From the NCBI GenBank assembly GCA_950295325.1, contig OX485809.1:14694001-14758000 (forward strand): a stretch of 64,000 nt of DNA, read 5' to 3'. The notes under the pieces were generated by a model that worked only from the letters and a program-made list of their open reading frames with translations, ran no database searches and was not told the origin of the DNA. The translations under genes were made by a program, and so were the position numbers. This DNA is from Polytrichum commune. Lineage: Eukaryota > Streptophyta > Polytrichopsida > Polytrichales > Polytrichaceae. Shown here one piece after another: positions 13,501 through 64,000 of this stretch (position 1 is its first letter; every line of letters starts with the position of its first letter).

Positions 13501-16500
13501 TTCTTGTGCGTTCTACCCTTTTGAAAATCTTAAACCCCTTGGCTAGTATATTTGCATTCTTATTTTGTGATCTTATGTAGTTTTTGGAGTTTGTGAAGGA
13601 TTTTTAACCGATTCCTTTTAATCATATGTGCTACATCTTGTGACATTTTGGGCTGGACATGAACTTCTTAATCTTCTGTCTGACCATTTGAAACTTCTCC
13701 TGACTCTGAAAATACTGTTACTGTATAGGGCCCAGAAGTCATGACCAGCGACAAGTATGCTACTGCAGAGGCATACTATGGTCTGGCCAGAGCATACTCC
13801 AATGTGCCAGATCTACATATCATGTGGCTTCTGTATCTTTGTGAAGTTCATCAAGGGAATCAATCTTATGCAGAAGCTGCCCAGTGTGCTGTTGCAGTTG
13901 CAGGTGTCATCATGCAGGTGCATATTGCTCTGTCTTTGACTGTTCAACATCTTATTCTTCATATAGTCTTTCAAGGAATCTGTCTGGATGTTTAGTTTGC
14001 AATCTTTATGGAGTGCGGAAGCCTACTTCACAAATCCTAGACTAATAATATGTTTTTCTGGTCATTCTTCAACGTCCTGTGGATTTTGTTTGCAAGTTTT
14101 ACATATACAACCTCAAACCAGAAAGTTCTACCGAACTGAGAACAAGCTTTTGTTCTAGTTGTTTTGGCTATCCTTTCGTATTTCAAACCCAGCATAGAGT
14201 CCTCAGTTTAGTATTTTGAGATAGTGTACGTGAAGAAGAACGATATCAATGCACAATAATTTTGCATCTTGTAAGAGTGCTTGGAAAGTTGATTGCAGGC
14301 CATAGTTGGGAAAGGTGATCATGTGTGGGAGAAAGAACATGTTGAGTCCCTACGTAAGATTTGCCCTATGCTTACTGGTGCCTGCTTTGGGGAAGCTGCG
14401 AGCGCGGAAATTGAAGGGTATGGGTCATCAAAGCTCACTGTTGAATCAGCTGTCAAGTATCTACAGCTAGCAAATAAACTCTTCGTCCAAGCTGAGCTTT
14501 TCCACTTTTGTGCTGGTACACTCCTGCACCTTTAGTGCTTAATCCTGTCTCTTCATTGCCCTGCTGTTTCTTCTTGTGGAGAATAATTCTAGCACATGGA
14601 GCTGTTAATTTTTGTGCATGTTTGTTCTCTTAAAGTCGAGTTCTGTTAATTTTCATCTTCAGCATGCAGTAAACATGTTGCTCTCTATACTGGTTGTCTC
14701 CTCTCCATCTTTTTTGCCCAATGGAGCAGACTGTGGCAAGTCAAATAGAACTGTACAATGGTTGACAATTACAAATCTGTGACTTTATCAATGAAATTGG
14801 TTTGCCCTGGTGCAGTTTTCATCCTGTAAGTCTTAAAACCATTAAATATTGTCATTTTGCCAGTCACAAATATTCATGATGTCTTCTGCTTCACTAAAGC
14901 AGGAAATGTGTTTACCTTTCCATTGAAGATGAGTATTGCCTAGATATGTAGGAGGATGTGAAGCCTAGGACGTTAGACCCTTCTACTATGTACAGTGTGA
15001 TGAAGTAATATGACATTGGAATATTTGGCTTTTCGTGACCCAATGTGAGCCATGTGAATGTGATCCATTTCTTGATGATTCTTTTATATGAACCAAATTG
15101 GGTCTTTGATTGCTAAGTCCCCTTTACTAGTCTAGACTAGTAAAACTCACTCATCAGGTTTTCTATGCAACTTGCTGAAGATAGGGTTGCATGATGATAC
15201 TTTTTCACTTGACCTGCTAAGGTGAATCCCCATGGATACACTGATTTGCAAGAGGACTTCACTCTTTGGATGAGGTTTTGCTCTTTTACTTATTAATAGT
15301 TATTCTCTTGGGACATGACTGAAAGTTTATGCATGTACCTGAGATATGAGAGTGAAACAGTGATATGCATACTAAATTCAGTCATAAGACCTGTTGAGCT
15401 GTTGAGCTTATAATGGATGTCATGTATTGTAATTACTATGTCTGTGTGCAGGCATCTTGGAACTTATCATCCCAGTTCATAAATCTAGGCGTGGATTTTT
15501 ACAGCTTGCAAAGTGTCATACCTCATTGACTGCCATTTATGAATCCATAGTGGAGCAAGAGTCCAGCCCTATCCCTTTCACAGATGCAACTTATTATCGA
15601 GTGGGATTCTATGGAAAAAGCTTTGGGAGTCTCAATTGCAAGGAGTATGTGTACAGGGAGCCACGAGATGTGCGGTTAGGGGATATAATGAGGAACTTGG
15701 GAAACATTTATGAGCCCAGGGTGATTGAGGGAAATCAGACCTTGCATATTATCCCAGATTCTCGACAAGTGAATCCTGAAGATCTACAAGCTGGAATCTG
15801 CTATTTACAGATCACATCCGTGGATCCTGTAACAGAGGATGAGGATTTAGAGTGTCGACGAGAAAGACAATCTGTGAAGTCAGCTGCAACAATTAGTGCA
15901 CGGGTGTTTGATAGATTTCTATTTGATACCCCTTTCACAAAGAATGGCAGGTCTCAAGGAGGTCTTGAAGACCAATGGAAAAGACGAACAGTTCTATGGA
16001 CTGAAGGCCCTTTTCCTGCTCTTGTGAACCGAATAGCGGTTGTGAAGTCAGAGTCTCGAGAATTCTCTCCCATTGAAAACGCCATAGGCATGATTGAAAC
16101 TCGTACAGCTGCATTAGCTGGAGAGCTTGATGACCAGCGTGTCAGCGAGGATAACCAGCTACCGCGCTTACAAAGTCTGCAGCGAATCCTGCAAGGAAGT
16201 GTTGCAGTGCAGGTAAACCAGTCATCAGAATACCCACTTTTAACATTGTAGCCTACCTGTTCCCAAGTATTACACTCACCCTTGTTTCTGTTTTAGGGGT
16301 TTATGTTTCTCAATACTTGGACATCAAAGTAATCTTCATGGTTCAGGGAGGAGAGCTGGAAACATAAACGAGAGATTGGGACTGACATTCAACAGATGAT
16401 TGTTTATGAGATTCTATATGATTGTTGACACTATGCTGATGTGGTTTTATTTTGTTTTGCAGGTAAATAGTGGAGTTTTAGGTGTGTGCACTGCATTCTT

Positions 16501-22608: not shown

Positions 22609-23375
22609 GGGGCCATTCACGGTTGGGGTACTACTTTTGGGACAAAGGACTTAAGGACTTTGTCGCATTGATCTTGGTTTTTATCATGATTTACTATTAT
22701 TTGATCAATAAATTTTACATAAATAAGTAGATAGTTCATAAGCTTTATCAAGAAATATTTTTATTATCATTTAATAATCGCCCAAAACCCAAAACCCTAA
22801 ACCCTAAACCCTAGGCCACATCAGTGGCATTTTTTTGCTATTTAGATGTGCATTGGTGGTCAATTATTTCCTGTTATGTATCTTGGTACCTTGGTAAAAG
22901 TGTCATGTGCCCATTCATATAAATTTTTTTGTCCAATTCTAATACTAGACATTCCTTTTACGTGTGGCCGTGAGTATATGTATATTTGGACATGTTTGGT
23001 GCCACATGTAAGGTTGGGCAATTGCTATTCAATACATATTTGGTTCTATTGGTACACACTTGAACGATGAGTGTGAGGAAAACATTTGGGATCATTTCGA
23101 TTGATTCTTGTTGTCCTTTTCATTCCTTGATCCTAAGGTGAACAATTAAGACAACACTCCTGAATGTCCTTTAAGGAATCAAAATGATATCTTAGATGAC
23201 CTAATTCCTTCTAAATTAACTTTGTCAGTGTACTCGATATGGAGTATGAAATGTAGGTATGATCCAAAATATGCTTCACAATACAAATCTAAGCATACCA
23301 AGCATGTGAAGTTATCCAAAAAGGTCCGTTTTCCGTTAGACGGCCAAAAGTAGTACCCCAACCGTGAATGGCCCC
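22609..23375. mobile_element. Non-autonomous transposon with perfect 32-bp TIRs
   Basis: The 32 bases at 22609-22640 (starting GGGGCCATTCACGGTTGGGG) are exactly the reverse complement of 23344-23375. ATAA lies directly outside both ends, which fits a 4-bp target duplication (or 3 bp if the true end is offset). The length is 767 bp. I see no transposase. Perfect TIRs suggest a recent insertion. The interior holds a telomere-like CCCTAAA tract at 22784-22814. The superfamily is not assigned. Confidence 0.75.
22784..22814. repeat. Interstitial telomeric repeat (CCCTAAA)n
   Basis: About three CCCTAAA units with a degenerate leader, matching the plant telomere sequence. It lies inside the 22609-23375 element, so it may have moved with it. 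Confidence 0.85.
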
Positions 23376-45039: not shown

Positions 45040-46859
45040 TCATGATAGGTTCAAACAATCTACTAACCTTATGTGGTATCCCTTACCATTGCAAGTAAAA
45101 ATACCTAGGTTCACACCTACCCATTTTTAAGTTGCCATTATGTTAAGAAACCATACAGGTTGTCTTAAGTTCATGGGTGGGACATTGTAAAGGATATTTG
45201 TGCACCACGTGCGGCGGAGGGGTATTTGTTTAGGGGTTATTTACTTCAAAGGCACGATATAAAGGTTCCCTATAATTACTTATTTCTCTAAAAGAACGTA
45301 TGTGTTTGCGCCCTATCATTACTTATACTTCCCATGCGAATGCAATTTGTTGTAGTTAATATTCCTTTTGAGTAATGAAAAGTAATCTTAGTCCATACAT
45401 AAACCATATTCATACATACTATTGCAAGCACGGTTCCCTTTCAAGCCATTGCAAAAAACTTGTGCCTGAGAATCATATTATAGAACACAACAACATGTTT
45501 TCCCACGTACATTATACACATTTTCATCTATCCAATGTGCAACATGCTTACAAACATATCATACGAACATAAACCCTAGGATCCTAAAATTTAATGCCTA
45601 TATTGCTTCTACTAGAAAGTAATGGCCCACATATTAAACCTATCTACTTTCATAACATTAAGTAGCAAGTCCGGAATGACCTTCTCAAACGAGCATCAAA
45701 TTGGCGCCTGCTGGTTTGATGTTCTTTCAAGTGCAAAGGTAATGCTACCTTTGAGTTTTACTTAGGCTATTTTTAATCTATTTGGATAATTACTTTCAAT
45801 GCTTAGAATTAATTATGTTGGTTTCTAGCACAAAACTAATGCCAAGTGGTGGTAAAGGTTCTAATCTAGGCTAAATTATAATTTAAACAAATCTAAATAG
45901 CTATAAAGCAACGGGAAAGTTGGTGAGGTCAAAAAAATAGTTGCACTTTTTGAAAAAATCTCCTAACATCCACATTGGAAATCTCGTTGATGCCTTTTTG
46001 AAGCTACTATATTTGATTAATTATTCATTCATTCACCCTTGCTTTGGAAGTTTTTCCCTTCTTGTTGAGGTAATATTGCGGGTACTCAAAGAGTTCCCTG
46101 CTAGCATTACTACTTAATGTTATGGAGATGTCATATTAATAAATGTTTCTACATCAAACATATGTGTCATATAGGAGAAGTTTGTTTACGTGTAAGATAT
46201 AATTTGACAACTAGGTCGTCACATGTAACACTATATTAAACATTTCGGGACTTTTTAGTGTCCCAAAATTGAAAAACATGTGTACTGTTGCCCATTGGGA
46301 ACACGGGAATGTCATTGGGAACGTCATTGGGAACATGACTGGGAACAATGGGAACACGGCCGGGAACACCTATGAGGACAAGGGAACGTGCTTTGCGTGA
46401 CAAATGGGCATTGGTGAGTCATGGATATGGGAACAATTAATTGTGGTAATGTTTGCATCCATGCATGCCTCCATAACATGCATCATGCACACCTCTTAGT
46501 ACATAGAATATTGATAATATTAAATTATTGGTTGGCATATTATACAACATTACACATTACACGTGGACAAATGCATATGGTAATTTTTTGAGAAGCCTTA
46601 CATTAACGTTGTGTCTACACCACACATGTGGGTATGCCATTTCTGGCAGTACGCACGTAATGCTCCTGTTGGAGTTTGAACAAAAAATATTTCATTTGTC
46701 AAAATTGGACCTCACTAGCCCCTACAATCTATACAAAGCAAGTTTGTTTCGTCTAGATCCAACCACCATGCTTGTTAACCCTGTTTTTTTTATCACCGCA
46801 AAGTGCGTCCACTAGATGGTCGTTTGCCTGTTGCATGTCCATGGCAACCTTGAGGCGCA
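45040..46859. other. Gene-free interval with a short GGGAAC repeat
   Basis: No supported gene. At 46294-46370 the motif GGGAAC recurs about seven times with 3- to 8-base spacers (ATTGGGAAC, ACTGGGAAC). The frame at 46528-46815 is unsupported. Confidence 0.4.
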
Positions 46860-49800
46860 CTAGAGTCCAACGACGTCCACCTCAACCACCCTCTGTCCAC
46901 GCTCTGCTGTTGAACAACGTCGAAGATTATCTTTGGCAAATCCAATTTGCTCTGGTGGAATAGTAACCCTTAAGGGCTCAACATCTTGATGTTCTGGCAG
47001 AGGCCAAGCTGCCAAAATGCAATCGATTGGTTGCCAGTCAGGAATGGAGTATTTCGAGTCACGTTTCCACTTGAAGTTGGGGTTTGAGTCCCACCCACTC
47101 CATTTCTTTGATAGGTCTCTGGCAGTTGAAGTGGGAGTGAACCATTGTACAGGAATTTGGCGTGGATGCTCTCCCGTGACATCCAAGTTGGGTGGAGACA
47201 ACGCAAGGCAAACCCAAATGGGTCGTACTATATCTTGTTCTTGGGGACGCAATATTAGTAAATGCCCTTCATGTACATTATCGGCGATGCGGAAAGCAGG
47301 TACGGGACGAAGGTTTGCTGGACCAACATAATGGTCATCCGGCTGGTGCTCTTCCCGAAGCTCTCCATTATGCGAGAACGGATGTGCATCTGATTGGACT
47401 GTACTCCGTGGCCAGAATCCCTCAGCTAATGGCAAGCCGACAGTGTACACGTTTGTGAGATGTGTTTCCAATGCCTCCTTCACCCCTATCCAATATTGCA
47501 AGATATGCATGTGTGAACCCATATATGCTCCAGTCGTGTCATGGTCACATATTGATTGCCAATAGTCAATAAACCCTTGGAGACCGACAAGAACATCCTC
47601 AAGCTTGGCCATACCTCGAGGTTGTGCAGGAGAAGGGTCCCCGGATGGGAGACATGGCTCCCCTTTTATATTGGATTTCCACATCAATATACCATCTTTG
47701 GGCAACCACTCTTCGTGCGTGCTGAGGACTTTGTACTGCATAACAGGCCAACCATCATCTCGGACATAAAATTTGAACTGTTGGGCCTTTGTGTGCCCAA
47801 TGAGTTTGTTGTTACCATTGGGAATATGATCACCAACAAAGGCCCTCCAATCCGGAAGTTCCTCGATCATATGCGGAATAACTGGAACTTTTTCCATATC
47901 CATGTACGATTTCATGAGGAGGGGGATAGTGGGGTAATCATGTTCACGTAGGTCCATGCTCCATCTTCCAAATGATGCATCGATATCATCATGTGTATGA
48001 CCAACCAACAAGTAAGACACATGTACCTCCATGAATATTCTCTTCGCCGTGAGCAGAGACCAAAATGCCTTTACAAACCTGCACTTGTTGTCCTTCCAGC
48101 AATTATCAAGTTGAACATGCAGAACAGGTGGAAGGGGAATAGCTGGGATGGGCTCCGTTGGTGGAGCTCGTAATCCTTCCAAACATACATCACTCCCATG
48201 AAGAATAGCACGATAAAGAGGTGACCGGCCCGAACCCTTGAATAGATTGCGAGATGATGATATTGGAGATTCCTCCAAATCACGGAGAAGTCTCGCGAAT
48301 GAACCTACAGTATGGTTGCAATCTCCAGGGTACATATCCAGAGCATAGTGAGCATATCTCTCATCTCCATGTCCATGGGCCATCATTCCTGTTACAGAAA
48401 GTGGTAATTTTGTAAACATGTCGGTGTCTTTGTTCTTGGAAGCAAAGCATGGAGACGCAGTTTTGCCATGGTCCATTTTGTCATGAATGATAGTCAACAC
48501 CTTTGTGGGGTGTTCAATTGAAAGAGCCCTCATGCAACGGTACGCATTGCGTGCAGATTCTTGCTGCGCTTGGTGCCTCGCCAACTGTTTTGAAAACCCA
48601 GTGTGGGCAGCTGAACCTTTGACATGTTGAAGAATAATGGCCGAAAGCGAATCACACTTTCCACAACGAGCAAAATTGTCACCAACCCTTTTCATCACGT
48701 AGTGTTTAAAGTAGTTATTCCGTATTTTGCTCAGGGTTGAGAGTGAAATTGGTTGCAAACCGCATTTGTCGTTGACCTGCAAAATTGCCAGATAAATAAC
48801 CAATTCATCAATAACCAGATTCATAAAATTGCCAGGTGAATAACCAACACCTCATATGAAGACCAATTCAAGTCTCATTGGTACTTTCACAATAAGTCAT
48901 TCGTTCTAGGTATACTGACAAGTATTTACACCAAGCGGTGAGAACAACTATATCATATGCTTACGTCATTGATGGTGACCAAAAATTTCTTCCATTTTGT
49001 CCCGCGAGGCAAGACCATTTCAACAACACGAGTACCATTTGGCAAAGTGCGGGCCTTATGAGGCATCATGTCGGCTTTATCTTCCAGTAGTGTTGAAAGA
49101 GTGGTAGTAGCTTGTTGGGTGGATGTTCGATTCCGTTTCATGTTTAGATTCCCATGGTCGCGTGGACGCATGCCACATTTGAATTCTGACCGGTTTCTGT
49201 AGAATGTTGTTTTTGAAATTGCAAAAATGTGTCTCCATGCTTTTTCACATACATTGCGACCACTCAAAGTGACAACATTCCTGAAGTTGCCCGGAAGTGC
49301 ATGTAATTGTCCATGGACCTCGAGTTGTTTGGCATGTCTCATGCGGCTTGAACAACTATAAAACTCGGTTCGCAGTTTCAGAGCCTCATCCCTAGGAAAA
49401 TACCTAGTGCACTCTCGATCGCAACAAACAATTGCGGAAAGCTGACAGATACTAGCATTATCAAGTATTTACGATTTTTTCGTCGGTTTGGTATGTAAGG
49501 ATGTACGGGATGAGACATATGCCCTCTTCCCTTCGTTCCTTCGTTTCTCTAGCAATTTGGTTTGCGCACGGGACCTCCATGCGCCCACATGAAGATGGTA
49601 TGCAAGTGTATATCTCTGGTGGAAAACTCCAGATATTGGCCACATTCTCAATGAGAACATCGATCCCATGTCCATCATACCCTCGATAGGTTCCATAATA
49701 AGGACCCCAACGTGATCTAGTCCAAGGCATTTGTCCTCTACACAATCCATTGGATTGACATTACGACAAATTCCCTTTGCCACATTTTCTCCATGTACAT

Positions 49801-50053
49801 TCACAAGCATCACTGGAATGTTCACCCACTGCTCCCTTTGAAGCCCACTGCATTGCACATCAATATCCTCGCCACCAACTTCGATTTCTTCTTCCGTGAA
49901 TACTGCCTCAGAAAGAGATAATTCCTGTATTGAACTGAAGTTAATACATGTTCAAATAATCAAACGATATTGCAAGATACGGGTATATGAAAGCAATGTG
50001 GGATGACATTATACCTCATCCGTATTAGCAGAGCCTGTATCCATTTGCTCCAT
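46860..50053 (-). CDS. DUF7869-type, transposase-like protein, frame broken by one TAA
   Basis: Minus-strand exons: 50053-50015 (MEQMDTGSANTDE), 49924-48965, 48776-46860; about 971 codons. Exon 2 starts with an acidic segment, then V.V....NVAKG..RNVNP.D.V....LG..HVGV, resembling a domain of plant En/Spm-type transposon proteins. A Cys-rich stretch follows (AIVCCDRECTRYF). Exon 3 has CGKCDSL, a His/Arg/Tyr spacing (LARHQAQQESARNAYRCMRAL), then the DUF7869 signature: LDNCWKDNK, VSYLLVGHTHDDIDASFG. These Asp/His positions suggest an RNase H-like nuclease fold (inference). At 49471-49469 an in-frame TAA interrupts otherwise continuous coding; the 20-base gap to the next AG is too short for an intron. 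It may be a recent pseudogene, may be translated from a later ATG (49342), or may be spliced in a way I cannot see. Palindrome array A lies upstream. Confidence 0.75.
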
Positions 50054-50326
50054 TTTCCTAAAAAAACGACACCCTTGTTAATAACAATACATTATACAAG
50101 TTCCAAAGCCATAATATAATAGTGACATGTATTTAGTATTTAATACCTTGCAACAACATTCAGACCGTCGACAAGGCCACACATACAAGAACGACCTCAT
50201 TTTCAGTGAACCTAAATTGGACGTTCTAAAAGAGCCAACACTTCCAAGTCCAATATAGTAGAACCTGCGCAAATGAGGATGCACTTGATCCAGTGGAACA
50301 TCTAAGGGACCATGACCATGGACATG

Positions 50327-51437
50327 CGGATCCACTCGATCGAGGGGATATCTCCAAGATGATCCAGTCGATGTCTTGGATCCTCCTACATGATTCTCTT
50401 CTCCAAGAGGATCCACTCGGTCGAGTGGATCCTCTTGGAGAAAATCCCCTTCGTATAGATTTTATTCGTGTATCCTCTTAGAGGATCCACTTGGTGGCGA
50501 GGATCTCTTGAGAGGAACGTGTCCCATTTAATCCTAGAGGATCCACTTCGTGGAGAGGATCCACTCGGTCGAGTGGATCCTCTTCTGGAGGATTCACTTG
50601 GTGGCTAGGAACCACTCGACCGACTGGATCCTCACCTATAGGTTTCACCTCATGGGCGAGGATCCACTCCATCAACTGGATCCCCTCCAAGATCCCTTGG
50701 TATAAGGGGCACTTTCTATTAGGGCACAATTGGCGTTTAGCCCACTTCGAGTTTAGCCCACTTGGACTTGGAAGTGGGCCTAAACATTAGCCCTACTTTA
50801 CAGTGGACCGTTGAGTGGGCCTTGCAAATGGGCGTAAGGGCTTTATATTGAGGCCCAATCCACGGCCCAGGAGCTTAAATGAATTTGCAATTGCTAGAAC
50901 TAAAGTCCTTGGACCCACATATAGCCCTTGGACCGACTTTTAATATAAAGCCCTTGGGCCCACATTAGGGCGCATTTGGGCAATCTAGGCCCACATATTT
51001 GTTGATGCCTAGGGTTTCGAAGTGGGCCGTAGAAGTGTCCTAACAGAGTACCCCTAAGAAGATCCACTCGATCGAGTGGATCCCCTTGGTATAAGAGGAT
51101 CCTCGATCGAGTGGATCCCCTCCTAGAGGATCCCCTTGGTATGGGGATCCACTCGATCGAGTGGATCCTTTCCTAGTGGACCCCTTGGCAGTGTGTATGT
51201 TTGACAAATTTCATTTGACACCCTCGAATCCAAAGTCAGGTGACATTCTCAAACACGTAAAATGAATGTCTAGGAGAATGCAAAAAACGCAAAATGTCTT
51301 AGGAGAGAACGGGGATTCACCTAGGAGAGGATTCTCCTAGAGGATCCCCTTGCTCTAGAGGATCCACTCGACCGAGTGGATCCTCTCCTAGAGGATCCCC
51401 TTGCTCTAGGAGGATCCACTCGATCGAGTGGATCCGC
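50327..51437. repeat. Palindrome array A: GGATCCACTCGATCGAGTGG-type units
   Basis: About a dozen full or degraded units of a 24-bp palindrome: GGATCCA, then core CTCGATCGAG, then TGGATCC. Full cores lie at 51061-51085, about 51144-51170 and 51411-51435. Core variants CTCGGTCGAG (50415, 50565) and CTCGACCGAG (51366) are reverse complements of each other. At 50401-50440 the symmetry extends to 40 bp with one mismatched pair. Units are joined by CCTAGAGGATCCCCTTGG-type linkers. The middle (50700-51040) instead repeats TGGGCC/GGCCCA and GCCCTTGG motifs. It lies 0.3-1.4 kb upstream of the DUF7869-type gene. Confidence 0.9.
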
Positions 51438-51447
51438 GTGGCACAAT

Positions 51448-51510
51448 ATCGTCTGGAACAACATCGTCTGGAACAATATCGTTCATTGATATCCGTACAG
51501 TTGTACGGAT
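51448..51510. other. Short direct repeats and a TCCGTACA..TGTACGGA palindrome
   Basis: CGTCTGGAACAA recurs with period 15 just right of array A (51448-51484). It is followed by a 20-bp palindrome at 51491-51510 (ATCCGTACAG / TTGTACGGAT, two central bases unpaired). A similar smaller palindrome, TCCGTATTGTACGGA, sits just left of array B at 59862-59876. Confidence 0.6.
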
Positions 51511-52760
51511 GTGTGGAGAGCAAATCCAACAGCAAAGCGAGTCCAGCACTGTATTGAACTGCAAGTCAAAGAGAGGTACTCTAGAGTGGGAGGCAACGGC
51601 AAGAAACGCAGAGATTTGAGGGGGCTCTCCATGAGTGAGTGAAGACAATGAGCTTAGAGACATGAGCCTTTTATACTAGTCGACACCTAATTTGGTGGGA
51701 GATTGCAGACACGATCCTGTACAGAAAATTTAAAGCTTCCCTCCCTATTGTACAAGGTCCTATCTTGAAGGACAAATTATCGTTTGGCAAGGTTCTGTAG
51801 TACAGAATGATAGTATAGCAAGCTGATGTGGTACGTGGTCCACGGGAGAAGTCCATCCACTCATTTGCTGACAAGTGTCCTAGTTTACCCCCCGTCGGTA
51901 GGACCATCAAATTTATCGAAGATTTTTAGATGACATTAATGGCGGTGTACTAGTAAACGCATGTGGGCCAAGATTAAATGCAGTCAACTCTATAAATGGT
52001 GGAGGTTGGAAGTAGGTAAAGAATAACATATAGAATCATGAGTAAGGCTTATAGAATGACTCAATTTATAGAGATAACTCAATTTATTACTCAATTTTTT
52101 TGAAAATGAAGAACATAGCGTTTTATACGGTGTGCACTGGTATTGCACGGGGAAATTTGAAATTTGAAATGAAAATTGGTAAAATTTGATGATTTGTTTT
52201 TTTTTTTTTAAACATTGTTTCTAACTAGAATGTCTTGACACACGATTGAACTAAAAACATTATTACAAAAAACAAAGGCGATGAAAATTTTCATAGAATA
52301 TAAAAAAGATAATATCATTGGTGATGTACTATATGTAGAAAAAAATACCATAAATTTGAAAATTGTCTATGGCATGTAATATACGGGTCGACGTTTAGAG
52401 TTTTTACGTGTATTGGGCAAATGACGAGGTGAAAATTGTTCCAAAATGTGACCTTAACGCATGACAAGTGGCATGCTAATAGATGGTGTCTTCCTTTTAC
52501 TGAAATCCACCTTTGGTTGGGAATTGGTCCCCTATGGTTTTGCACTTGCGAACTTCCTCATTCATTCCTTCCGTTGTTTACGCATGATCGGAAACAAGGG
52601 TGGAATGTGAAAGTGAAACCTATAATTTAGGTGCATTGAGGGCCAAACTTGTGATGGCCCACTAATTAAGATGCAGAGGAATTTAGCAACGCATTAGATT
52701 GACTTTGAAGAAATGTTCGTTGATTAAGAAACATAACACATAGTTAGTGTAGTACTTGGT
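51511..52760. other. Gene-free interval
   Basis: On the minus strand a frame from ATG at 51663 runs toward array A and could be a 5' exon of the DUF7869-type gene with array A in its first intron, but no donor is clear. Otherwise I see only AT-rich sequence, including a T run at 52198-52209. Confidence 0.3.
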
Positions 52761-52788
52761 TTTAGGGTTTAGGGTTTAGGGTTTAGGG
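52761..52788. repeat. Interstitial telomeric repeat (TTTAGGG)n
   Basis: About four TTTAGGG units in a row, in the orientation opposite to the tracts at 22784 and 55851. Confidence 0.9.
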
Positions 52789-55165
52789 GAGTCGCAATGT
52801 TGTTATTATACACGAGGTTGCCAAGTGGCAAGCCTCACATTCATTTGGGAGAATGAAGCATATGGTATTCTACTAGTGGCAAGCCCCAACATTCATAACG
52901 TTTGGGTTTGTTTTCTTTTTATATACAACTACAAAATATAGACTTAAGAAAAACTTAAAATAAAATAAAATTTGCAACCACTCATGTAACATTCAATTGC
53001 GGTGACATTCACATTCCAACTTGCATGCTTGACAAAGAAAAACACATTTTTCCTCATATGTTGGCCTTTGTAGGACCTCCCTACTCTACATGAAAGCGCT
53101 CAACGAACACGATGCTTAGACATAGAAACCAATTTAAGCTTTGTCAATATGGGACTAATATTGACAAAGTCTAAGTAATTAGCCTTGCCATTGAATGGTC
53201 AACACATGAAAGCATGCCCTTGAGCTAGTTGACGTGCATTAGCCTAAGGCCTCCAAACCTTCACCTTCAACGTCTACTAGAAGCACCATCATGATAGCAT
53301 GAGCCGGAGGTCCTATCATGTTGGATGGGTACCAATTTTTCCTACTTTGCGGGTGAAAACTATGAAAATCCAAAAATTTCATGTTACACTTTTGTTTGTT
53401 TGAAAATAATCTATTTCATACCCGAGGTTAGAAACATTTCTTTAAACCAATATCTGGTGGTTCCACATCTTGGTAAAGTTTCACATCATAAAGTAATTAC
53501 AAAAATTGTTGTTTTTTTCAATTCTGAGTCATTTACACTATTGAAACCCTTGGACAACTGCCAAAATAACTATAGTTATGTAAGATTTTCTCAATATATG
53601 TTAGGGACCAACTATAGTTAATTAGAAAAATTTAAAGTATTATTATATATTTGAAGAAGTTTGCCTCTTGATTTGCTTCAGTTAAGGGTCTTCAATATGC
53701 TCGGACCAGTGACTCATGCCTTGATACGATTACTCACAATGTTGGGCTCCGAAACAACCTCCATGTACACCACCAACACAAATAACACACTAGTGACACT
53801 ACAACATCACAAGAAAATCATGTGAACATGTTGCGCTCATGTTTAGTTAACAAGCTTTTTTGGCAGGTCAAATCGCGAACAACTATAGCTACGAAAGGCA
53901 ACTAGTTAACGAATAGTTGGATTTGTTGGTTAGTTGTTCATGATGGTATGCACTATTGAGGGCTGCTTCACACTATGACTGTCCAAGTCGAGAGGCCTTG
54001 GGATTGAGTGGCCAAACTTTGTTGAGAGTCCAAGGAAATGAACTGAAAATAGCCAATAAAATATAATAAGTGGAGCCTTGGGCCGAAGATAGTGTGAAGC
54101 CTCCAAAGGCCAAGCCCAAAGTCCGTACCCAGAGGAGCATCCAACTTTATAATTCCCTGCTCAAAATAACCCCTTCAATCTAACGGCCAAGATTTTGTCA
54201 ATGATTGATTTTTTAATGAAAAAAAACCAACGGCCTCTTGACCATAGTTTGGGTTTCCATTCCCGTCCCACCCAAACTTCCTTCAAGAGTCCGTAATTAC
54301 AATGTTAATTTAGATCCTTATATTTTATGGATATCCACAATGATTGGTGATTGAATTTGATGTACACTCGTGGATACCTTCAGTTCATAACTACATAATA
54401 ACCGGATCGATAGTTGGCAACAATGTATACATATCCACAGCCAATAATGGTACTAACTTAATTTGAATTTATTTTCAAAAATTTGCAACAAAGCGTGAAA
54501 TCCGACCTTTGAGATAAATTGAAAAAACATGATAAGTATAGGTGCTAAAAAATAGTTGTCATGGTCCAAGATGACCCTAAACTACCACGTGATAGCGGAA
54601 AGGTACCCAAACTGTCGCGGATAACATTACCCAACCCAAACGTCTTAACTCCGGCGCGGAGTTCGATGCGGCTCCGGGGAGGTTCGGATGCCAGCTCCGG
54701 TGGGTAGTAATTGGTTCCTCAAATGTACTTGTGGTAGTAATTGGTTCATAAACACCATACAAAACAATGGGTTTATAATCAAGTAAATACCTCACATACT
54801 TGGTTCTAAAACAACGGAAACTAGATAACAAACAAACACCCATCCCCCCGCCTTAGAAAGGTTAGATATACTTAATATTACACTAGCGCCCACCTCCCCA
54901 CGGAGGCAAATCACCTTATACTGCATCACGGTACACCGTGGTCAATGCAAGGCTAACGGATGGGCATTCACGCCGGTATAAAGATTACGGTGTTATTTTT
55001 TCTTTTCTTCTTATGTAGTAATGTAAACACTCACACAACCCACCGACATTATAATGTCAGCACAACGCTAAGAGACGACGTAGTTGATTTAGAACAATGA
55101 ATTCATGATGCCACTTGGACATACATGTAGTAATGTCAAATTATGGCAATATATTTCAGAGTTGG
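52789..55165. other. Gene-free AT-rich interval
   Basis: No supported gene. GTGGCAAGCC..ACATTCAT occurs twice about 60 bp apart near 52815 and 52876. GGTAGTAATTGGTTC occurs near 54703, 54732 and again at 55398, hinting at a diverged repeat spanning 54700-55450. Confidence 0.35.
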
Positions 55166-55335
55166 TCAATCTATCATGAATTGATTGTTCTAAACTACAA
55201 TTGGTTTCTCAATCAATCATAAATTGATTGTTCTAAACTACAATTGGCGACTCAATCAATCATGAATTGATTGCTCTAAACTACATTTGCTTTCTCAATC
55301 AATCATGATTCAATTGTGTAGTAATTGATTTAGAA
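55166..55335. repeat. 43-bp tandem repeat, about four units
   Basis: The unit CAATCAATCATGAATTGATT followed by GTTCTAAACTACAATTGG repeats with period 43. The first half of each unit (AATCAATCATGAATTGATT) is itself nearly palindromic. The last unit is degenerate. Confidence 0.8.
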
Positions 55336-55850
55336 CTATCAATTCATGATGCCACAAGGATTCTTGAGACGCCAATTACTACCTCCCCGACCAATGTGGT
55401 AGTAATTGGTTCCTCAAATGTACATGTGGCATCATGAAATGATTGTTCTAAGTCATGAAGCAATGTGCACCCAAGTTTGCACCTATATTAGAATAAAAAG
55501 ATTTATAATCAAGTATATTTAAAATCGTGGGATTACTCAAACCTTTGGACGTGATGACTCAAATCTCAAAAGGTAATTACGTCAAAAGGTTTTGAGTCGA
55601 GTCTACCCATTGACCCTGCTTGATGATGATCCATCATAATAAATGACGCATGTCATGTGATGCATGCAATCAATAAGATAAATTGCGTAAGTCAAACCTT
55701 TTAATTTTCCTTAAACATAACTAACTACATTGCGTGTTATATTCATATGCAAAATGTCATATTCCCTTGGTCGTAAGAAGGTATGTTGCAAAGCCAAATG
55801 ATAAGCTATTCACTGATACTCAATGTCGTCCAAGTTGGCTATAGAATCTT

Positions 55851-55881
55851 AAACCCTAAACCCTAAACCCTAAACCCTAAA
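55851..55881. repeat. Interstitial telomeric repeat (CCCTAAA)n
   Basis: Four perfect CCCTAAA units. A weaker single trace (CCCCAAACCCTAAACC) lies near 56491. Confidence 0.9.
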
Positions 55882-57211
55882 TAGTTGGTAATGGTTGTAT
55901 TGCCAACCATTCTTGCATGATGTTGCTCGTATACTTGCAATGGGATCATAATCAAGTTGAAAGATCGACGCCCTTGGATATGTTTTACAAGCTTGTATTC
56001 CTACCGCCCAAGTCTTTTCTTGTATTGAAGTTTGAAAGATGCTATTAATATATGAATTGATCCAATGGTTGAATTTCGAGTTTAGGTATCATGTTTATCA
56101 TTAAGTTCCCAATAATAAGTGAAGTTCCTCTAGTTAGACGAGGTTATGTTTTATTTCTTTTTATCATACCAACATTTTATGCACATCCCTACAATTCACT
56201 AAATTCAAAGGTGTAACTGTCACATGATATTACCAAAGTTGAGATTTAGTGTTTGAGTTTACCGTTAATGTTACTTTCATAGGGTGATTTCATAGGGTAA
56301 TGGTGCTATCCTGAATGATGCTGCATTGCAATAACGACACGCTCAATACTAAAGTCAAGGTAACAAATGGGCATACCCATAGTCCAAATTTATTGTCTTC
56401 AATTCTATAATATCCGTTGTTCTCCATTCACTTGAACTATGGAGTGTAGGCAAGATGGACAAGCAATTTCCTTAGTCCATACACTAATACCCCAAACCCT
56501 AAACCATATATGTGGAACGGGCAAGACTTGAACGGGCAAGACTTGAATGTGTGTTTTCTAGTGGGGGTGGAAACGGTAGAGGACCAATGCGAAGACAATT
56601 TAGACCGGATGGATAGTGGAAATGTTGACAATGAGTTCACGAATGTTCAAGGCCTTTAATATGCAACATACCATGTCATGTTACAGTTTATCTATAGTTC
56701 CACTTCAAATCGACACATGAACCATGCCTAGTATATACAAGTGAAATCCTCATTTCACATGATCATGTCTGACTCAACTTATAATGAAGTAATTGAAATT
56801 GTGAAACCACAATATACGCATTTTTTTTCCAATCCATTAGAGTTATCCTTTAACTCAACCGGAGTTTTAGTAAGGAGTTGGTTGTTTCGCATGCATAATT
56901 TTCCATGTTCGGTACTAAGTTGTGGGTGCATGCTTAACTTAGGCTAATACAAGTGCAACCTAAAAAATTTGTAACTTAGCCTATAAAATTTTGAAAGTGT
57001 AGGACAAAGAGCCTATGGACAATTTAAAAACATAGGATATCAACCTATGTGATAAAAAACATGTAGGAAATTTTGCCTACATTTTTTTTAAAAGAGAGGA
57101 ATTTAGCCATTCATCCTTCTTCAAATTGGAAAATTAGTTGGCCTAAGTACATATCTTTAGGCTATATCTTGCAGGGAGAGTAGAGGTTGAATCAGAAGAT
57201 GGTGAGGACTT
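55882..57211. other. Gene-free interval with a transposon fragment
   Basis: No supported gene. 56840-56945 (AGAGTTATCCTTTAACTCAA, then GGAGTTGGTTGTTTCGCATG) matches the left end of the 350-bp TIR family. AACGGGCAAGACTTGAA is repeated in tandem at about 56516-56547. Confidence 0.4.
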
Positions 57212-58020
57212 TCACCCACGGGGGGGTGACTATCGGAATTTTAGAAACCACGTGAGATAAAAAATAGGGTCAATTTAATTCGTTGAGGGTAAAATTTATA
57301 ACTTCGTTAGATCTACCATAGCTTTGGAAATATGTCCCATACATGATTATATATAAAATAGGGCAGTGAATAATTCCTCCATTTTAGTAATCAGTAGAAA
57401 AAAAATAGGATTATAGATATTGGATCCCCCCAAATGTGTGTAGTAGAATCAATAGAATAATTATGGGTTTGACTACTTGGATGAAGAATTGTGTAAATTA
57501 TGTCCAAATTTGAATGAAAAGTGTTAGTATGGAGGGAAAATGTTGTGGATTTTTTGGGGGGAAGGAACATTGTGACTTCTCAACGGCCCTTGGGTTGGCT
57601 TAGGGTTTGGACAAACATAGTGGCGTGAAGGCGGTGAAGCGTTTGGGTAGGAGGTCTTGCGTTGGTGAAGCGTGAAGGGGTGAAGCAGTGAAGCAGTGAA
57701 GCGTGGCACAAAGGCGGTAGGTAAGACACATTTTTTGGAGCTTTCTTTGTTGCTCACATAGTTGATTTTGCAATGCTATAGTATTCCGTTCATTATTTGG
57801 TACTTGTACGATTTATAAAAAAAATATGATGCCAAAAATTGGTCTCTCTAAAAATTTACAAATAAACATAGGGTGCTTAAAAATATGTCAAAGTAACTTT
57901 ATATCTACAAATAGGGAGGGAAAAAATACTGAGAGGTGCATAAATACCCCCCCATTAAATACCCCATTATCGCACGTGGTTACAAAATGTAAGGGGGTGT
58001 GACCCCCCCGTGTTTTCACC
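57212..58020. mobile_element. Putative TIR element, about 810 bp
   Basis: The left end (CACCCACGGGGGGGTGAC, then AATTTTAGAAACCACGTGAG) and the inverted right end (AAAACACGGGGGGGTCAC, then ATTTTGTAACCACGTGCG) match imperfectly over about 50 bases. The interior includes a GTGAAGC-rich patch at 57620-57715. No transposase seen. Confidence 0.45.
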
Positions 58021-58101
58021 CTTAAACTCATTTGAATTTTAGCAACCTTTCATAAATTTGAAATCAACTCTTTAAAAGAAGAGTTGGTTAATCCTTGGCC
58101 T

Positions 58102-58529
58102 AATGTTAGTGTCTCTAATGTCCAAATGCAAGTCACTATTTAGTGTCTCTAATTGTGATTACTCGAATGTCCTAGTTGGCATTTATTGCCATAATTGGCA
58201 TGAGGGCTGATTTATATCATGGGAAGTGGAGAGGTGTAATTGGCCTAATTGGCATAATTGGCATAATTGGCGTAATTGGCGTAATTGGCCTAATTGTTTT
58301 CAATTGTAATAACATGCACGCCACTAATTGGTAAAGCCTATGTCCAAATACAATTCACTAAATGTCTATAATGCCCAAATGCAAGTCACATATTAGTGTC
58401 TAATGTCCAAATGCAAGTCACTATGTAGTGTCTCTAATTGGCATTATAACGAATGTCGTAGTTGGCATTTATTGGCATAATTGGCATGAGGGCTGGTTTA
58501 TAACTTTATACCATATGAAGTGGAGAGGT
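58102..58529. repeat. 284-bp-spaced direct duplication with an AATTGGCATA array
   Basis: AATGTCCAAATGCAAGTCAC at 58118 recurs at 58402, with matching flanks through TGAGGGCTG and AAGTGGAGAGGT. Between the copies, 58237-58300 is a 10-bp repeat (TAATTGGCAT, sometimes GTAATTGGC). Confidence 0.75.
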
Positions 58530-58530
58530 C

Positions 58531-58936
58531 ATCATTGATATACACTTAAGTTGTGACAAGCCAAATAGGGGGCTGCAACCCCTATAAAGGACGCGTACCC
58601 CAGCAATTATGGGACGGTATGCGCAGATCTGAACCGTCCATGTTGACGGCCTAATCCAGATCGTCCGATTTGAGGAAGGGCCGCATCCCTTGGGCAGACT
58701 GACACCCTCCTGTCTCATTTTGACTCGGCCATTCTGCTCCCTCTCTTCCCTTGCTCCCTCTCTTCTCTTGCTCCCTCTCCTCTTTTCCCTTCTATTCGCT
58801 CCTGTTGCGGTGATCGGTGCAGGCAATTCGCTCCAGGTGTGCGTTCCAGGAGGAGCTTGTTGGAAGCGATCGGCGCCCTTCGCATTGCCGCGCCAATCTG
58901 ATACAATTTCAGCGTTACAGCTTGAGACTTGTGGTA
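58531..58936 (+). promoter_or_regulatory. Probable promoter and 5' exon of the ParB-like gene
   Basis: GC-richer than its surroundings, with a CT-rich tract of CTTGCTCCCTCTCTTC repeats at 58736-58800, typical of plant core promoters and 5' UTRs. A good donor (TTGTG before GTAGGT) is at 58934. The open frame here has no ATG in register, so the exon is probably untranslated. Intron 1 would then run to 60393. Confidence 0.4.
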
Positions 58937-59660
58937 GGTTTCCAATTCATTGCATGTTGCTTCCAATTCATTGCATTTTGCTTGCAATTCAGTACATGTT
59001 GCTTCCAATTCAGTGCATTTTGCTTGGTGTGATTTCCAATGCTTGCAATTCATTCCATTTTGCACTTAAACATTTGAACTTAAACATTTGCACTTGAACA
59101 TTTTAACTTAAACAATCTGAACTACTTTTGAACTAAATATTGTGCAATTAAACTTCTGAACGTAAAGTTAACATCTGAACTTAAAGTTAACTTCAGAACT
59201 TAACTTCAGAACTTCTAAACTCTGCAAAACAATGCAAACCAATAAATATTGTGCACTTAAAACTTCTGAACTTAAAAGTTGTTAATGCATACTTCTGAAC
59301 AAACATCTGAACTTCTTTTCGTGAATGCAGTTGATCCTAAACATTTGAACTATAAGTTCTGAATGCATACTTCTGACTCCCAATTCAACTTCTATAAGTC
59401 AATGAACTCTCAATTGCTACTCTGAATTCAATGTATACTCGAAGCTGGTGGCCTTATCATGAATTAGGTTATGAATTCCTACTCTGAATTGAAGTGCATG
59501 TAGAAGCCCATTCTTTGAAGCACATCTTTTCCAGAATGGTTGAATGGTTTGAATTGGATGCAATTGGATTGATTTGGTTTGCTTTGAATTGGTTTGGGTT
59601 GCATTGGATGCAATTGGTTTGCATTAGTCTGGTCTGCATTGGTTTGCATTGGATGCAAGT
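58937..59660. repeat. Low-complexity repeats filling intron 1 of the ParB-like gene
   Basis: Three successive simple-repeat styles: about 22-bp units of TTGCTTCCAATTCATTGCAT (58937-59070), then ACTTAAACATTTGAAC and AACTTCTGAACTTAAA types (59070-59350), then GGTTTGCATTGGATGCAATT (59540-59655). Each is degenerate. Confidence 0.6.
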
Positions 59661-59906
59661 TCTTTACAAAATTTTATGCTATCTTCCAAGTTAGCTGAAT
59701 TGTTTGCAATGTCCATAGAAGAAAAGAAACTTCAATTACATATGTCAATGCACAATTTCATTGACTAAACATGATCTGAAAGACATGCAAGGGGGGAGCA
59801 ATTGTTGATAAAATTTACCTTACCCCACACTAATAATAGGCATAAAAGCCATCATGAGCCCTCCGTATTGTACGGACGAAAAGAACCTAACCCATAACCC
59901 TAACAA

Positions 59907-60311
59907 CTTCCACTCGATCGAGTGGAAGTGGCCATGGCTTGGCCGCCTGCCTGTGGCCCATGTCCTGGGCACTTCCACTCGATCGAGTGGAAGTGCCCAT
60001 GGCTAGGCGGCCTGTCTGTGGGCCTAGCACTGGGAACTTCCACTCGATCGAGTGGAAGTGGGCATGGCTTGGCCGCCTGCCTGTGCGCAATGCGCTTGGC
60101 ACTTCCACTCGATCGAGTGGATGTGCGCATGCCTAGGCGGCCTGCCTGTGGGCCTAGCACTGGGAACTTCCACTCGATCGAGTGGAGGTGCCCATGGCTA
60201 GGCGGCCTGTGGGCCTAGCACTGGGAACTTCCACTCGATCGAGTGCTTATTGCATAATGATGGGGGACGCCTATGTTTTGACATTGCAGCTTCCACTCGA
60301 TCGAGTGGAAG
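59907..60311. repeat. Palindrome array B: seven CTTCCACTCGATCGAGTGG-type units, 65-bp period
   Basis: Palindrome starts are 59907, 59972, 60037, 60102, 60167, 60228 and 60290, giving spacings 65, 65, 65, 65, 61 and 62. Each is CTTCCA, the core CTCGATCGAG, then TGGAAG. At 59967-59998 the symmetry is perfect over 32 bp (GGGCA added on the left, TGCCC on the right). The spacers alternate between two kinds: one with CTTGGCCGCCTGCCTGTG, one with CTAGGCGGCCTGYCTGTGGG. The last palindrome lies in unrelated sequence. The array sits in intron 1 of the ParB-like gene. Confidence 0.95.
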
Positions 60312-60393
60312 TATCCTTCGCATGATTTCGACATGATTTCTCAATTGAAATGCCCACATTGATATATTGATTTTGTTCCCATCCCCATTGCAG

Positions 60394-63300
60394 GTGATGG
60401 ACAGGGAGGTGCTGTGGAGTGACCTTGTAGGGACTCTACATGAAGGGCCGAATGGGCCCTACTGGGCTGTGAAGGACACACATTTAAAACATTGGTCACT
60501 CCAAATTCACCAAAAAGACAAAAGGTCCCCCATGCAGTTAACATTTGCTTATCGCATAGACAAGAGCTGGATTCCAAATCCTGGCAACCCTATAACGATT
60601 GCTGCTGTGGGTACTAAGGATAGGCTAGATATTTCAGTGCAAGAGGGGCTCGAAGTGAGAGTAATGTCCCTTGATTGCAAAAAACATGTATTCCACTTGG
60701 AGCCATTTTTAGAATCCATGTCCGCGCTCCCTTCAAAGGACAAGGAAGAAATTCAGACGGTCATGGTATCTGGAGTATCGAAGAAGGCGATCAATTTGTA
60801 CTGGAGACACTAGGGGATATAAATGAGAAGTTGGCCACTGAACAAGAATCATATATGAAGCAGAAGAAGAAGCAGGCGGAGACTGTTCTGAAATCAAGGA
60901 CACATGAAGGAGGGTCTAGCAGGTCGAGGACCCCGCAATCAAAGAAAGCCTCTCAGAAATCGGCCGACGATGATTTGAGAGGCACAACTGAGACGGGGAA
61001 GTAAAAAAAGAGAGGTGAGATTGTGCATTTCTCCGCGCCAATGGAAGGCGACGATATGGACAGGCCGCCGACTGCGAAAAACAAAGCGTATGGCAAAAGA
61101 GGATCATCACCAGATAGAAAGACAAAGCCAAAGAAGATGAAATCAACGGAGGAGGACACCCCCTTGGTGCTAACTGCAACAGAGAAGGGGAGGGTTATTA
61201 CGCATGGCGAGGAACCCAGTCTCGAAGAAGCAGCAAAGGACCGCAAGAAGTTCATTCAACTTTTTGGACACCTCTATCCATTTGGGGTCGAAGCAGTCTT
61301 CCGGGTTAATATAAAAAAAATGACGAGCGCAAAAGCATATCAGGTCACTCGTCCACTGGATGATGCCGGGGTAGCCCTTATGAAGAACTACCTCGTTCAA
61401 ACGCCACCGGCTTGGCCGCATCACAATCTGTGTTTGATGCCCAAATTCAAGAAGGGGGAGAAATGGAGAGAATGGATGACGTGGGATGACATTAAGGACG
61501 GTCAGTTTGTCATCATCAACGGGCAGCACAGCGTTGCTGCATCAAGGCAGATAATAGGCCATAGAGATACAGAGCCTTCATTGCGAGAGAAATTGAAGGT
61601 ATGGCCGTGCACAATAGTTTGGAGCGACGATCCAAGCATGACTGTTCGACTCTCGTACACCTTAAATAACTCGAACTCTTTCAACAAGTTCACTCCAACA
61701 TGGACAACCCAGATCATGTACTGTCGCAGGGTGTGGGTGAAATTGGGAAGGCCTCATAAGCAGCGAATCAATGCTGCTGAGGGATCACTCGATCCAAATA
61801 TGTCTACGGCCTGGAAGGTATGCCCTCCACTTCATATGCTTAGCGTGTAGTAAAGGCATATCATGTACTTCTAATTTATTGTTCTATGTTGTGTACTTGA
61901 ACCCCCATGTGCATAGAGGGCTCCTCTCGATCGAGAGGAACTCCCCAGGGTGCAGAGGGTTCCTTTCGATCGAGAGGAACTCCCAGGGTGCAGAGGGTTC
62001 CTCTCGATCGAGAGGAACTCCCCAGGGTGCAGAGGGTTCCTCTTGATCGAGAGGAACTTCCCAGGGTGCAGAGGGTTCCTCTCGATCGAGAGGAACTCCC
62101 CAGGGTGCAAGTTTGTTTCATTCATATTGGTTCTTGTATTGACATTCAACAATTCTTGTATTTTGACATGGCAGAATTTCACAACAAGCATGGAGGCCTC
62201 TTTCACAGCCATAGCTAGAGGAATCACTCATGCAAATCTGAATGCAGAGCTCACCCTCATCATGGCTCCAGATCCGACGTCGAGATTGTGGAGGAGATTT
62301 TTATAGCTCACGAAGAGGGCACACTCATGAATCCAGATAAGCATGGCTATACATTTCTGGATGACTACATGGAGGCTCAACAGAAGCTGCGAGCCCGTCA
62401 CGAAAAGAAAAAGTCGCCTTCTGCATTTGAAGAAAAACCCTATGTTTGCAAACCTCTAACAAGGGAGACCTTAAAAAACATGGCCGGCCTAACACGGGCT
62501 GATTACTTCCTTTGTGCACAACGTATATTGGATATAAGGAATGGAGAGGATGTTCCCAGAGTGATTCTGAGAACGACAAAGAATCCAAAAGTTTCGACCT
62601 TGAAGTCCTGGTCTAACTTTAGGAAATGGAAGAATAACTTACTTCAAGAGTTGTCTTCACGCGATCCAAAACAGCGTGGTATATGGGGAAATGATTCAGA
62701 GGGTTTTGATTGCGTGGACCGTGCCGTTTGGATCAAGTTCAAAAAGGAGCACGGAATCACAAAGGCAAAGTGGGTTAAGCTCTACCAGGTTGCGGGTGAT
62801 ACATGGCTCAATAAGAAGCGTTTGCCGAACAACAAGTACCTCGAGGCACCCCCTGCATGCGACCGATTGCTGCACGACTGACTTCAAACAGACATGCGGG
62901 AGTGCAATTCGAAGGTCATCACACGCTGGGTAGATTACAATTCAATCAAGAAGCAATTGGTAATCCCTCACCAAGACAATAGCGATATCCAGTGGTTAAG
63001 TAAAAGCAACATATGTGGTGGATTCATAGACTTCAGATTTGTCCCTGGCAGCGTTGACCAACCGGTGTCCACTTCAGTCGTGGAGTCATTGGTGAAGTAC
63101 ATTACCAATCCGGCATGGTCCCCGGGTCTTAAGATTGTCCCTGCTTGGATGATTGTATCGGATCTCCGTAACCACCCAACAGCAGTTGAGTTCATATGTA
63201 TGTTGTGTCGGAGGCATCCAGACACGTTTGTGAATGTACCATCATTCTATTTCCCCTGCCCCGCTGAGGATCTGCCACCATGCAAGGAAGTAGACAGCAA

Positions 63301-63842
63301 GAGGACTTCTCCGGCTCTTTATGTCGACTTTCTGACAACCAAGCTCCTACCCAGGTTCAAAGTCTTCCCATGCCCAATGTTAGCTCCGGAATCTCGACGG
63401 TACACTGTGAGTCCCAAGCAGTGGTCGGAGTTGAGCTATGAAGTGAGTCGCGGCGAGCTGAGGATGGAAACATATCTTACATTCCTTAGCCACCTGGGAT
63501 GCTCGGGAGCAGTGGTCTTGAATTTCTTCGGAGGATTGAAGCCAATAGCTGCCGCACTGGTCAGTTCATTGCACCTCCTCTCTTCGCAACCTCTTCCATT
63601 CATTGGCATGCTTTCAACCGTGCATTCTCTATGATTGCTAATGAATTACTTGTGTGCAGATGAACGAATACAATGTATTTTCGTACATGGATTCGAATTT
63701 CATGCACACATTTGGCGACAAATTGGCACATATTCGTCCCCTTCGCGCCGTTGACTTTCAAGAGGATGAGTCTCATTTTGATGCTTACGGAGCACAGGAG
63801 CTAATTCAACCTATTCGAGATGAATCCCCTCCTCAATTGCTG
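60394..63842 (+). pseudogene. ParB-N-like / possible methyltransferase-like gene, interrupted
   Basis: Exons 60394-61817, 62175-63559 and 63660-63842; continues past the window. The start is ATG 60397 (MDREVLWSDLVGT). Order: a 125-residue domain I do not know, then a Lys-rich, partly coiled-coil linker. Next comes a ParB-N-like domain at about 61270-61650 (VFRVNIKKM, YQVTRPLDDAGVALMKNYL, DGQFVIINGQHSVAASRQI, comparable to the GxHR box). A basic region follows, then a C-terminal part with VVLNFFGGLKPIAAAL and FSYMDSN, resembling motif I and the acidic loop of DNA methyltransferases (weak). Breaks: a frameshift near 60765, TAA at 61002-61004, a second frameshift between 62219 and 62306, and TGA at 62879-62881. 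Coding sense resumes cleanly after each. ParB plus methylase is a phage-like pairing. Most likely a young pseudogene of a multi-copy family. Confidence 0.6.
61919..62104. repeat. Palindrome array C: five CTCTCGATCGAGAG units, 39-bp period
   Basis: Starts are 61923, 61962, 62000, 62039 and 62078 (period 39, once 38). The unit is GTTCCT, core CTCGATCGAG, then AGGAAC, followed by the near-constant linker TCCCCAGGGTGCAGAGG. Single-base core changes occur in units 2 (TTTCGATC) and 4 (CTTGATCG). It lies in the 61818-62174 intron. Confidence 0.95.
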
Positions 63843-63920
63843 GTACGTCTACATTATTGCACGAGTCAAGTGGAAATACATTGTGGACATACTTTAGTTT
63901 CTTTCAAGCCATTCTATATT

Positions 63921-63977
63921 TCCTCTCGATCGAGTGGAAGCTTGGTGGCCTGGTCTTCCTCTCGATCGAGTGGAAGC
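63921..63977. repeat. Palindrome array D: two units, 36-bp period, probably continuing
   Basis: CTTCCT or TTTCCT, core CTCGATCGAG, then TGGAAGC, at 63920 and 63956. One arm position is mismatched (T opposite T), so this is a hybrid of the arms in arrays B and C. It starts 78 bases after the donor at 63843 and reaches the window end, so more units are likely beyond it. Confidence 0.85.
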
Positions 63978-64000
63978 TTCGTCGTCTTCCCATGACCTTC

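Follow-up and report, generated by a model that had tools for sequence, protein, structure and literature searches.

Family-specific palindrome arrays in the noncoding parts of a 23-kb DNA transposon in the moss Polytrichum commune

In a 64,000-nucleotide stretch of the Polytrichum commune genome (C7:14694001-14758000, hereafter the window; the assembly comprises 407,808,757 bases in 64 contigs), palindromes recur in four arrays, and the locus raises the question of what keeps the two sides of such palindromes alike. A preliminary description of this DNA held that the arrays share a constant core, that left and right arms change jointly between arrays, and that independent point mutation would not maintain such symmetry, implying either selection for it (a dimeric protein site or a hairpin) or a copying mechanism. 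Judged by bibliographic entries, no plant repeat was found among the literature matches listed for the core CTCGATCGAG, and the literature on moss palindromes, transposons, ParB/sulfiredoxin and Zisupton contained no published description of the element analyzed here among the matches listed.

The four arrays on a shared core are real: CTCGATCGAG occurs as 17 exact sites at four places in the window and in none of 100 shuffles, and the arrays hold 23 cores with at most two mismatches (9 in A, 7 in B, 5 in C and 2 in D).

50328..51435, + strand: array A, nine cores (at most two mismatches), arms GGATCCA/TGGATCC, 5' of the DUF7869 gene
59905..60312, + strand: array B, seven cores, main period 65, arms CTTCCA/TGGAAG
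61915..62109, + strand: array C, five cores (three exact), period about 39, arms GTTCCT/AGGAAC, in predicted intron C
63918..63977, + strand: array D, in predicted intron D; two cores whose hybrid arms mismatch at one pair

Read from the centre outwards, the half-sites are CGAGTGGATCC in array A, which in parts has a tandem period of about 50, CGAGTGGAAG in array B and CGAGAGGAAC in array C. In these three arrays the arms are symmetric as originally described, but array D, with two units 36 bp apart, departs from the rule: a C-like left half is joined to a B-like right half, and both units consequently mismatch at pair 6. The core is likewise less constant than was claimed, given that centres G/T and A/C also occur in array A, so that the central pair is variable, and that the core differs across element families (see below); what persists is a conserved two-fold core within each family. 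Symmetry in single units extends to pair 17 (unit 59983) or pair 22 (unit 50421), and arms that are perfect to at least pair 9, with the central pair left free, were found at 15 centres inside the arrays versus 3 elsewhere in the window. Two small palindromes of the CCGTA..TACGG type lie near arrays A and B (51491-51510 and 59861-59877).

Covariation in the window was assessed on 22 of the 23 units (21 distinct rows, the deleted unit at 51107 being excluded) against 500 shuffles, all of which were exceeded by the fraction of paired cells (92.9% versus 81.7% shuffled), the number of cells with a two-sided change (26 versus 11.0) and the covariation score (0.308 versus 0.139). Two further measures on the same units stayed at the shuffle level, namely the count of pairs altered in both arms (4 versus 3.3, equalled or surpassed in 174 of 500 shuffles) and that of additional pair types (9 versus 8.2, equalled or surpassed in 196 of 500). 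So small a set of arrays offers a limited number of independent changes within the window.

All four arrays lie inside a single DNA transposon of 23,031 bp (46227-69257 in window numbering), a setting that the preliminary description had not anticipated, nor had it expected the core to vary across families.

46223..46226, no strand: target duplication ATGT, left copy; the right copy follows immediately after 69257
46227..64000, + strand: part of the transposon within the window; the element continues to 69257
46227..46259, + strand: imperfect terminal inverted repeat of about 33 bp at the 5' end
46860..49951, - strand: DUF7869 gene, probable DDE-type transposase (Pfam and predicted fold); gene start not fixed
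60394..61817, + strand: ParB-fold gene, first coding exon (open reading frames; fold of relative P0002)
61818..62174, + strand: predicted intron C (GGAAG/GTATG .. GGCAG/AAT), holding array C
62175..63842, + strand: ParB-fold gene, predicted following exon, with one in-frame stop (62879-62881) in the window copy
From 63843, + strand: predicted intron D, holding array D

Two copies on C2 and C6, approximately 99% identical, served to set the element ends, which were then read off in the window copy. All three copies, examined end to end, carry imperfect terminal inverted repeats of about 33 bp and 4-bp target duplications (GGTT on C2, CATG on C6 and ATGT in the window). With these inverted ends, the target duplication and the predicted RNase H-like fold of the putative transposase, the host element is a multicopy 23-kb TIR DNA transposon of which the arrays are noncoding parts. 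The combination of a 4-bp duplication with AACAC ends matched no named superfamily in those portions of published descriptions that were compared. The CpG observed/expected ratio is 0.66 in the element (46227-69257) versus 0.39 in the flank (1-46200), short interstitial telomere-like repeats (CCCTAAA/TTTAGGG) occur at 22781-22813, 52761-52788 and 55850-55881, and an exon with DHR-2 (DOCK-type) domains is located outside the element at 15433-16248.

The DUF7869 gene (Pfam PF25273, E 1e-40) consists of open pieces at 46860-48851, 48953-49468 and 49469-49951 that are 94.7-96.0% identical to the C2 copy; a stop between the last two pieces is present in the window copy and absent in the C2 copy. 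Its product is probably a DDE-type transposase, as modelled, and DUF7869 had no literature match. The ParB-fold gene, named after the ParB/sulfiredoxin-like fold predicted for its relative P0002, is broken in the window copy, where the frame shifts near 60813 and a stop precedes 61005, and array B precedes its first coding exon in a predicted 5' intron whose donor is not fixed. The predicted structure includes the ParB N-terminal (CTPase) fold, both fold matches (DDE-like and ParB-like) being modest, and in the element pieces scanned with Pfam no DNA-binding domain of the ParB-fold protein was found. Among the matches listed, relatives of both neighbouring genes are mostly metagenomic, the only organism named being the moss Ceratodon purpureus (46% identity). 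The C2 copy additionally contains an ORF resembling NIF-type phosphatases (L184:2955-3773), and the metagenomic protein P0037 looks like the same ORF.

Genome-wide, where the preliminary description had sought enrichment of the core and covariation of the arms, both were found: CTCGATCGAG occurs at 579 sites versus 123 for its reversed control, and TTCCNCTCGNNCGAGNGGAA at 403 versus 0. The TTCCNCTCGNNCGAGNGGAA sites comprise 101 with A..T, 284 with T..A and 18 with anything else at the flanking pair, so that at least 385 of the 403 are complementary there. Palindromes lie directly 3' of the same exon in 30 of 30 element copies examined, out of 138 exon matches in the genome, and these copies hold 229 loose-motif units versus 3 in reversed sequence. 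Complementarity was observed at pair 6 in 209 units versus 112.9 expected and at pair 11 in 203 versus 98.3, counts that are not corrected for relatedness of the copies; pairs 2, 3, 7, 8 and 9 are nearly invariant and show no excess complementarity in the same 30 copies. The centre itself breaks this pattern: among the matches listed, 20 of 50 centres lack self-complementarity. Six of 86 sites among the matches listed are more than 32 kb from any exon match listed; the random-position control redraws a position for each match, and the number of matches times 40 kb over the contig span likewise comes to roughly 1%.

Each of three element families possesses its own half-site, inverted around two free bases. 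The distant family, with exon identity of about 30%, uses CGTTCGTA: seven copies contain 69 right and 76 left halves that form 62 inverted pairs, all 2 bp apart, and in two copies the units are irregularly spaced, most of them unpaired soon after the core and a few paired to pair 14-18. The half-site of the 508-aa family, CGAGTGAAA, was paired in 9 of 9 cases in the single copy examined. None of six cross-family counts yielded an inverted pair of one family's half-site in another family, the only cross-family matches being two unpaired 508-type halves in fam1. The 46,200 bp of the window outside the element contain two unpaired fam1-type halves and none of the other two types. Core positions are less variable than those farther out (2 of 22 versus 35 of 92).

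Relatives of the ParB-fold gene in metagenomes that run past the same splice donor provided 28 tails, often ending in translated palindromes. Among tails of at least 15 aa, 5 of 23 reach p < 0.01 unaided. One protein, P0006, contains four palindrome copies, spread over three frames; back-translated, they converge on ACTTCCAGTCG-AC-CGACTGGAAGTT, with a single position in 30 compared columns lacking a letter that fits all four. When left and right halves were re-paired among 17 palindromes (13 metagenomic, picked by eye from the tails, and 4 from the window, with the poorly fitting P0016 and its two mismatches retained), 9 mismatches were observed versus 20.05 expected (p = 4e-4). When the first 158 metagenome proteins were scanned blindly for palindromes at the codon level, the outcome was much like that of shuffled proteins (best score 20.0 versus 19.3); the codon-level signal rises above shuffled only in tails beyond the splice donor. 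P0165 was considered as a mutated B-type palindrome and rejected, its tail resembling the 508-family copy L195, which has the site TTTCACTCG. Outside these proteins, CCWCTCGATCGAGWGG was found as one palindromic site in each of 26 stretches of the viral collection and in each of 80, out of at least 120, stretches of prokaryote genomes; no arrays of it appeared among the matches listed from either collection, and a viral protein scan found no relative.

A dimeric DNA-binding protein encoded by the element fits the fixed half-site and spacer, the exclusivity between families and the clustering of the sites. We consider it about an even call that the palindrome is a family-specific two-fold site for a dimer of such a protein, which would recognize its own element's copies, likely for anti-silencing; both binding and the anti-silencing role are inferred. 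The ParB-fold protein is, because of its fold, the first candidate for the binder. Clustered in introns and upstream DNA, the sites would allow the protein to recognize and mark the element's own copies, and marking would most likely protect the activity of these copies from silencing, in the way that VANC acts on VANDAL elements. Several points count against this reading: some arms are very long, larger than any protein site; the arm type can differ between arrays of one element (A, B and C in the window copy), with pairs 2-9 differing between arrays in 7 of the 28 copies that have both introns; both fold matches are modest; and six of the 86 listed sites are those noted above as distant from any listed exon match.

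The outer arms bear on the contrary proposal, that the palindromes are a functionless mutational by-product, made or repaired by template switching or conversion and multiplied by slippage. In one founder palindrome, L163, all 57 of 57 pairs beyond the centre match. Across 11 copies (mean exon divergence 5.3%, L159 excluded beforehand for an indel), seven compensatory paired changes, five of them transversions, fall on the same branch; the 46 slid controls, for which the complementarity test is laxer than in the real register although long slides compare fewer pairs, average 0.13, so that independent point mutation is insufficient, as had been argued. The same copies tolerate 38 one-sided changes and contain two two-sided changes that are non-complementary, and, given this tolerance and the over-frequent paired changes, a DNA copying process is a likelier cause of the likeness of the outer arms than strong selection on pairing. 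Template switching at quasi-palindromes is a known mechanism that, according to the available portion of PMC8794818, can alter both arms in one step, which would suit the paired changes in the moss arms. It leaves the conserved, family-specific core unexplained: the core is less variable than the outer arms, each family has a fixed half-site with a 2-bp spacer and zero cross-family pairs, and most of 22 distant-family units among the matches listed are unpaired soon after the core. We therefore regard a mere by-product as rather unlikely, and would combine the dimer site with a copying process: beyond the core, hairpin template switching or arm-to-arm conversion would keep the arms alike, and arrays would grow by tandem duplication. 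Array A holds 12 and 6 loose-motif units in the approximately 99% identical C2 and C6 copies, a difference that, by comparison of these sequences, is a recent tandem gain or loss.

Other roles for the symmetry fare less well. Intronic RNA hairpins, with stems selected for splicing or as small-RNA precursors, would suit the predicted intronic positions and the strong folding of arrays C (z -7.1) and B (z -14.4), but self-complementary units in any array fold well and array A sits upstream of a gene on the opposite strand. Isolated mismatches in arrays B-E (33 G-T, 21 A-C and 39 other) reveal no clear G-U preference, for which reason hairpins are not favoured, and at pair 12, where G-T prevails (42 versus 5 units), a single inherited state accounts for most of the excess; this explanation is improbable. 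Of the possibilities originally put forward, selection for symmetry is thus consistent with the conserved two-fold core and copying with the paired outer-arm changes, whereas the RNA hairpin recedes. Sites for a dimeric host factor, serving the element as enhancers, would account for arrays upstream of and within genes, but different half-sites in families of one genome, and the near absence of all three types from the window outside the element, make this quite improbable. Short symmetric motif arrays inside a DNA transposon also recall subterminal repeats bound by a transposase for transposition; this is highly improbable because in three full elements of about 23 kb every loose-motif unit falls within 4.1-18.6 kb, away from the ends.

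VANDAL elements carry a MULE transposase and generate a 9-bp target duplication, unlike the moss element with its DUF7869 gene and 4-bp duplication. Given this difference, and since no DUF1985, DUF287 or MULE match was found by Pfam in the moss element pieces scanned, the moss element is not a VANDAL. The layout is nonetheless similar. According to the available text of PMC5735166, the VANC protein of Arabidopsis VANDAL21, which carries DUF1985 and DUF287, as VANC proteins do, binds motif arrays and removes methylation; both elements have motif arrays in introns (predicted in the moss) and upstream noncoding DNA, and both encode an extra protein. VANDAL motifs are short, family-specific and often tandem, motifs and proteins diverging between families (PMC5735166 and PMC10398659, as far as available). 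The VANDAL21 motif is given as YAGTATTAY, and no word beginning with "palindrom" occurs in the main text of PMC5735166, whereas the moss sites are two-fold symmetric.

ParB-parS (also Noc and KorB) resembles the moss element in placing a ParB/sulfiredoxin-type fold, predicted here, beside clusters of perfect palindromes. The moss element differs in being a eukaryotic transposon, and its ParB-fold protein reads GQHS at the motif where ParB has arginines; by Pfam, no HTH and no ParA match was found in the pieces scanned. That it is a eukaryotic, transposon-borne ParB-parS-like system, in which each family's ParB-fold protein would load onto parS-like palindromes of its own family and coat its own DNA against silencing or to steer inheritance, with site and protein co-diverged into several mutually exclusive specificities in this genome, is a doubtful but conceivable extension of the predicted fold.

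If the dimer-site reading is true, plant transposons acquired sequence-specific self-recognition in a lineage other than VANDAL as well, through another protein fold and a two-fold site. With three protein-site pairs present in one genome, the co-evolution of specificity can be put to the test, and the long founder palindromes offer a natural record of how the likeness of arms is kept up.
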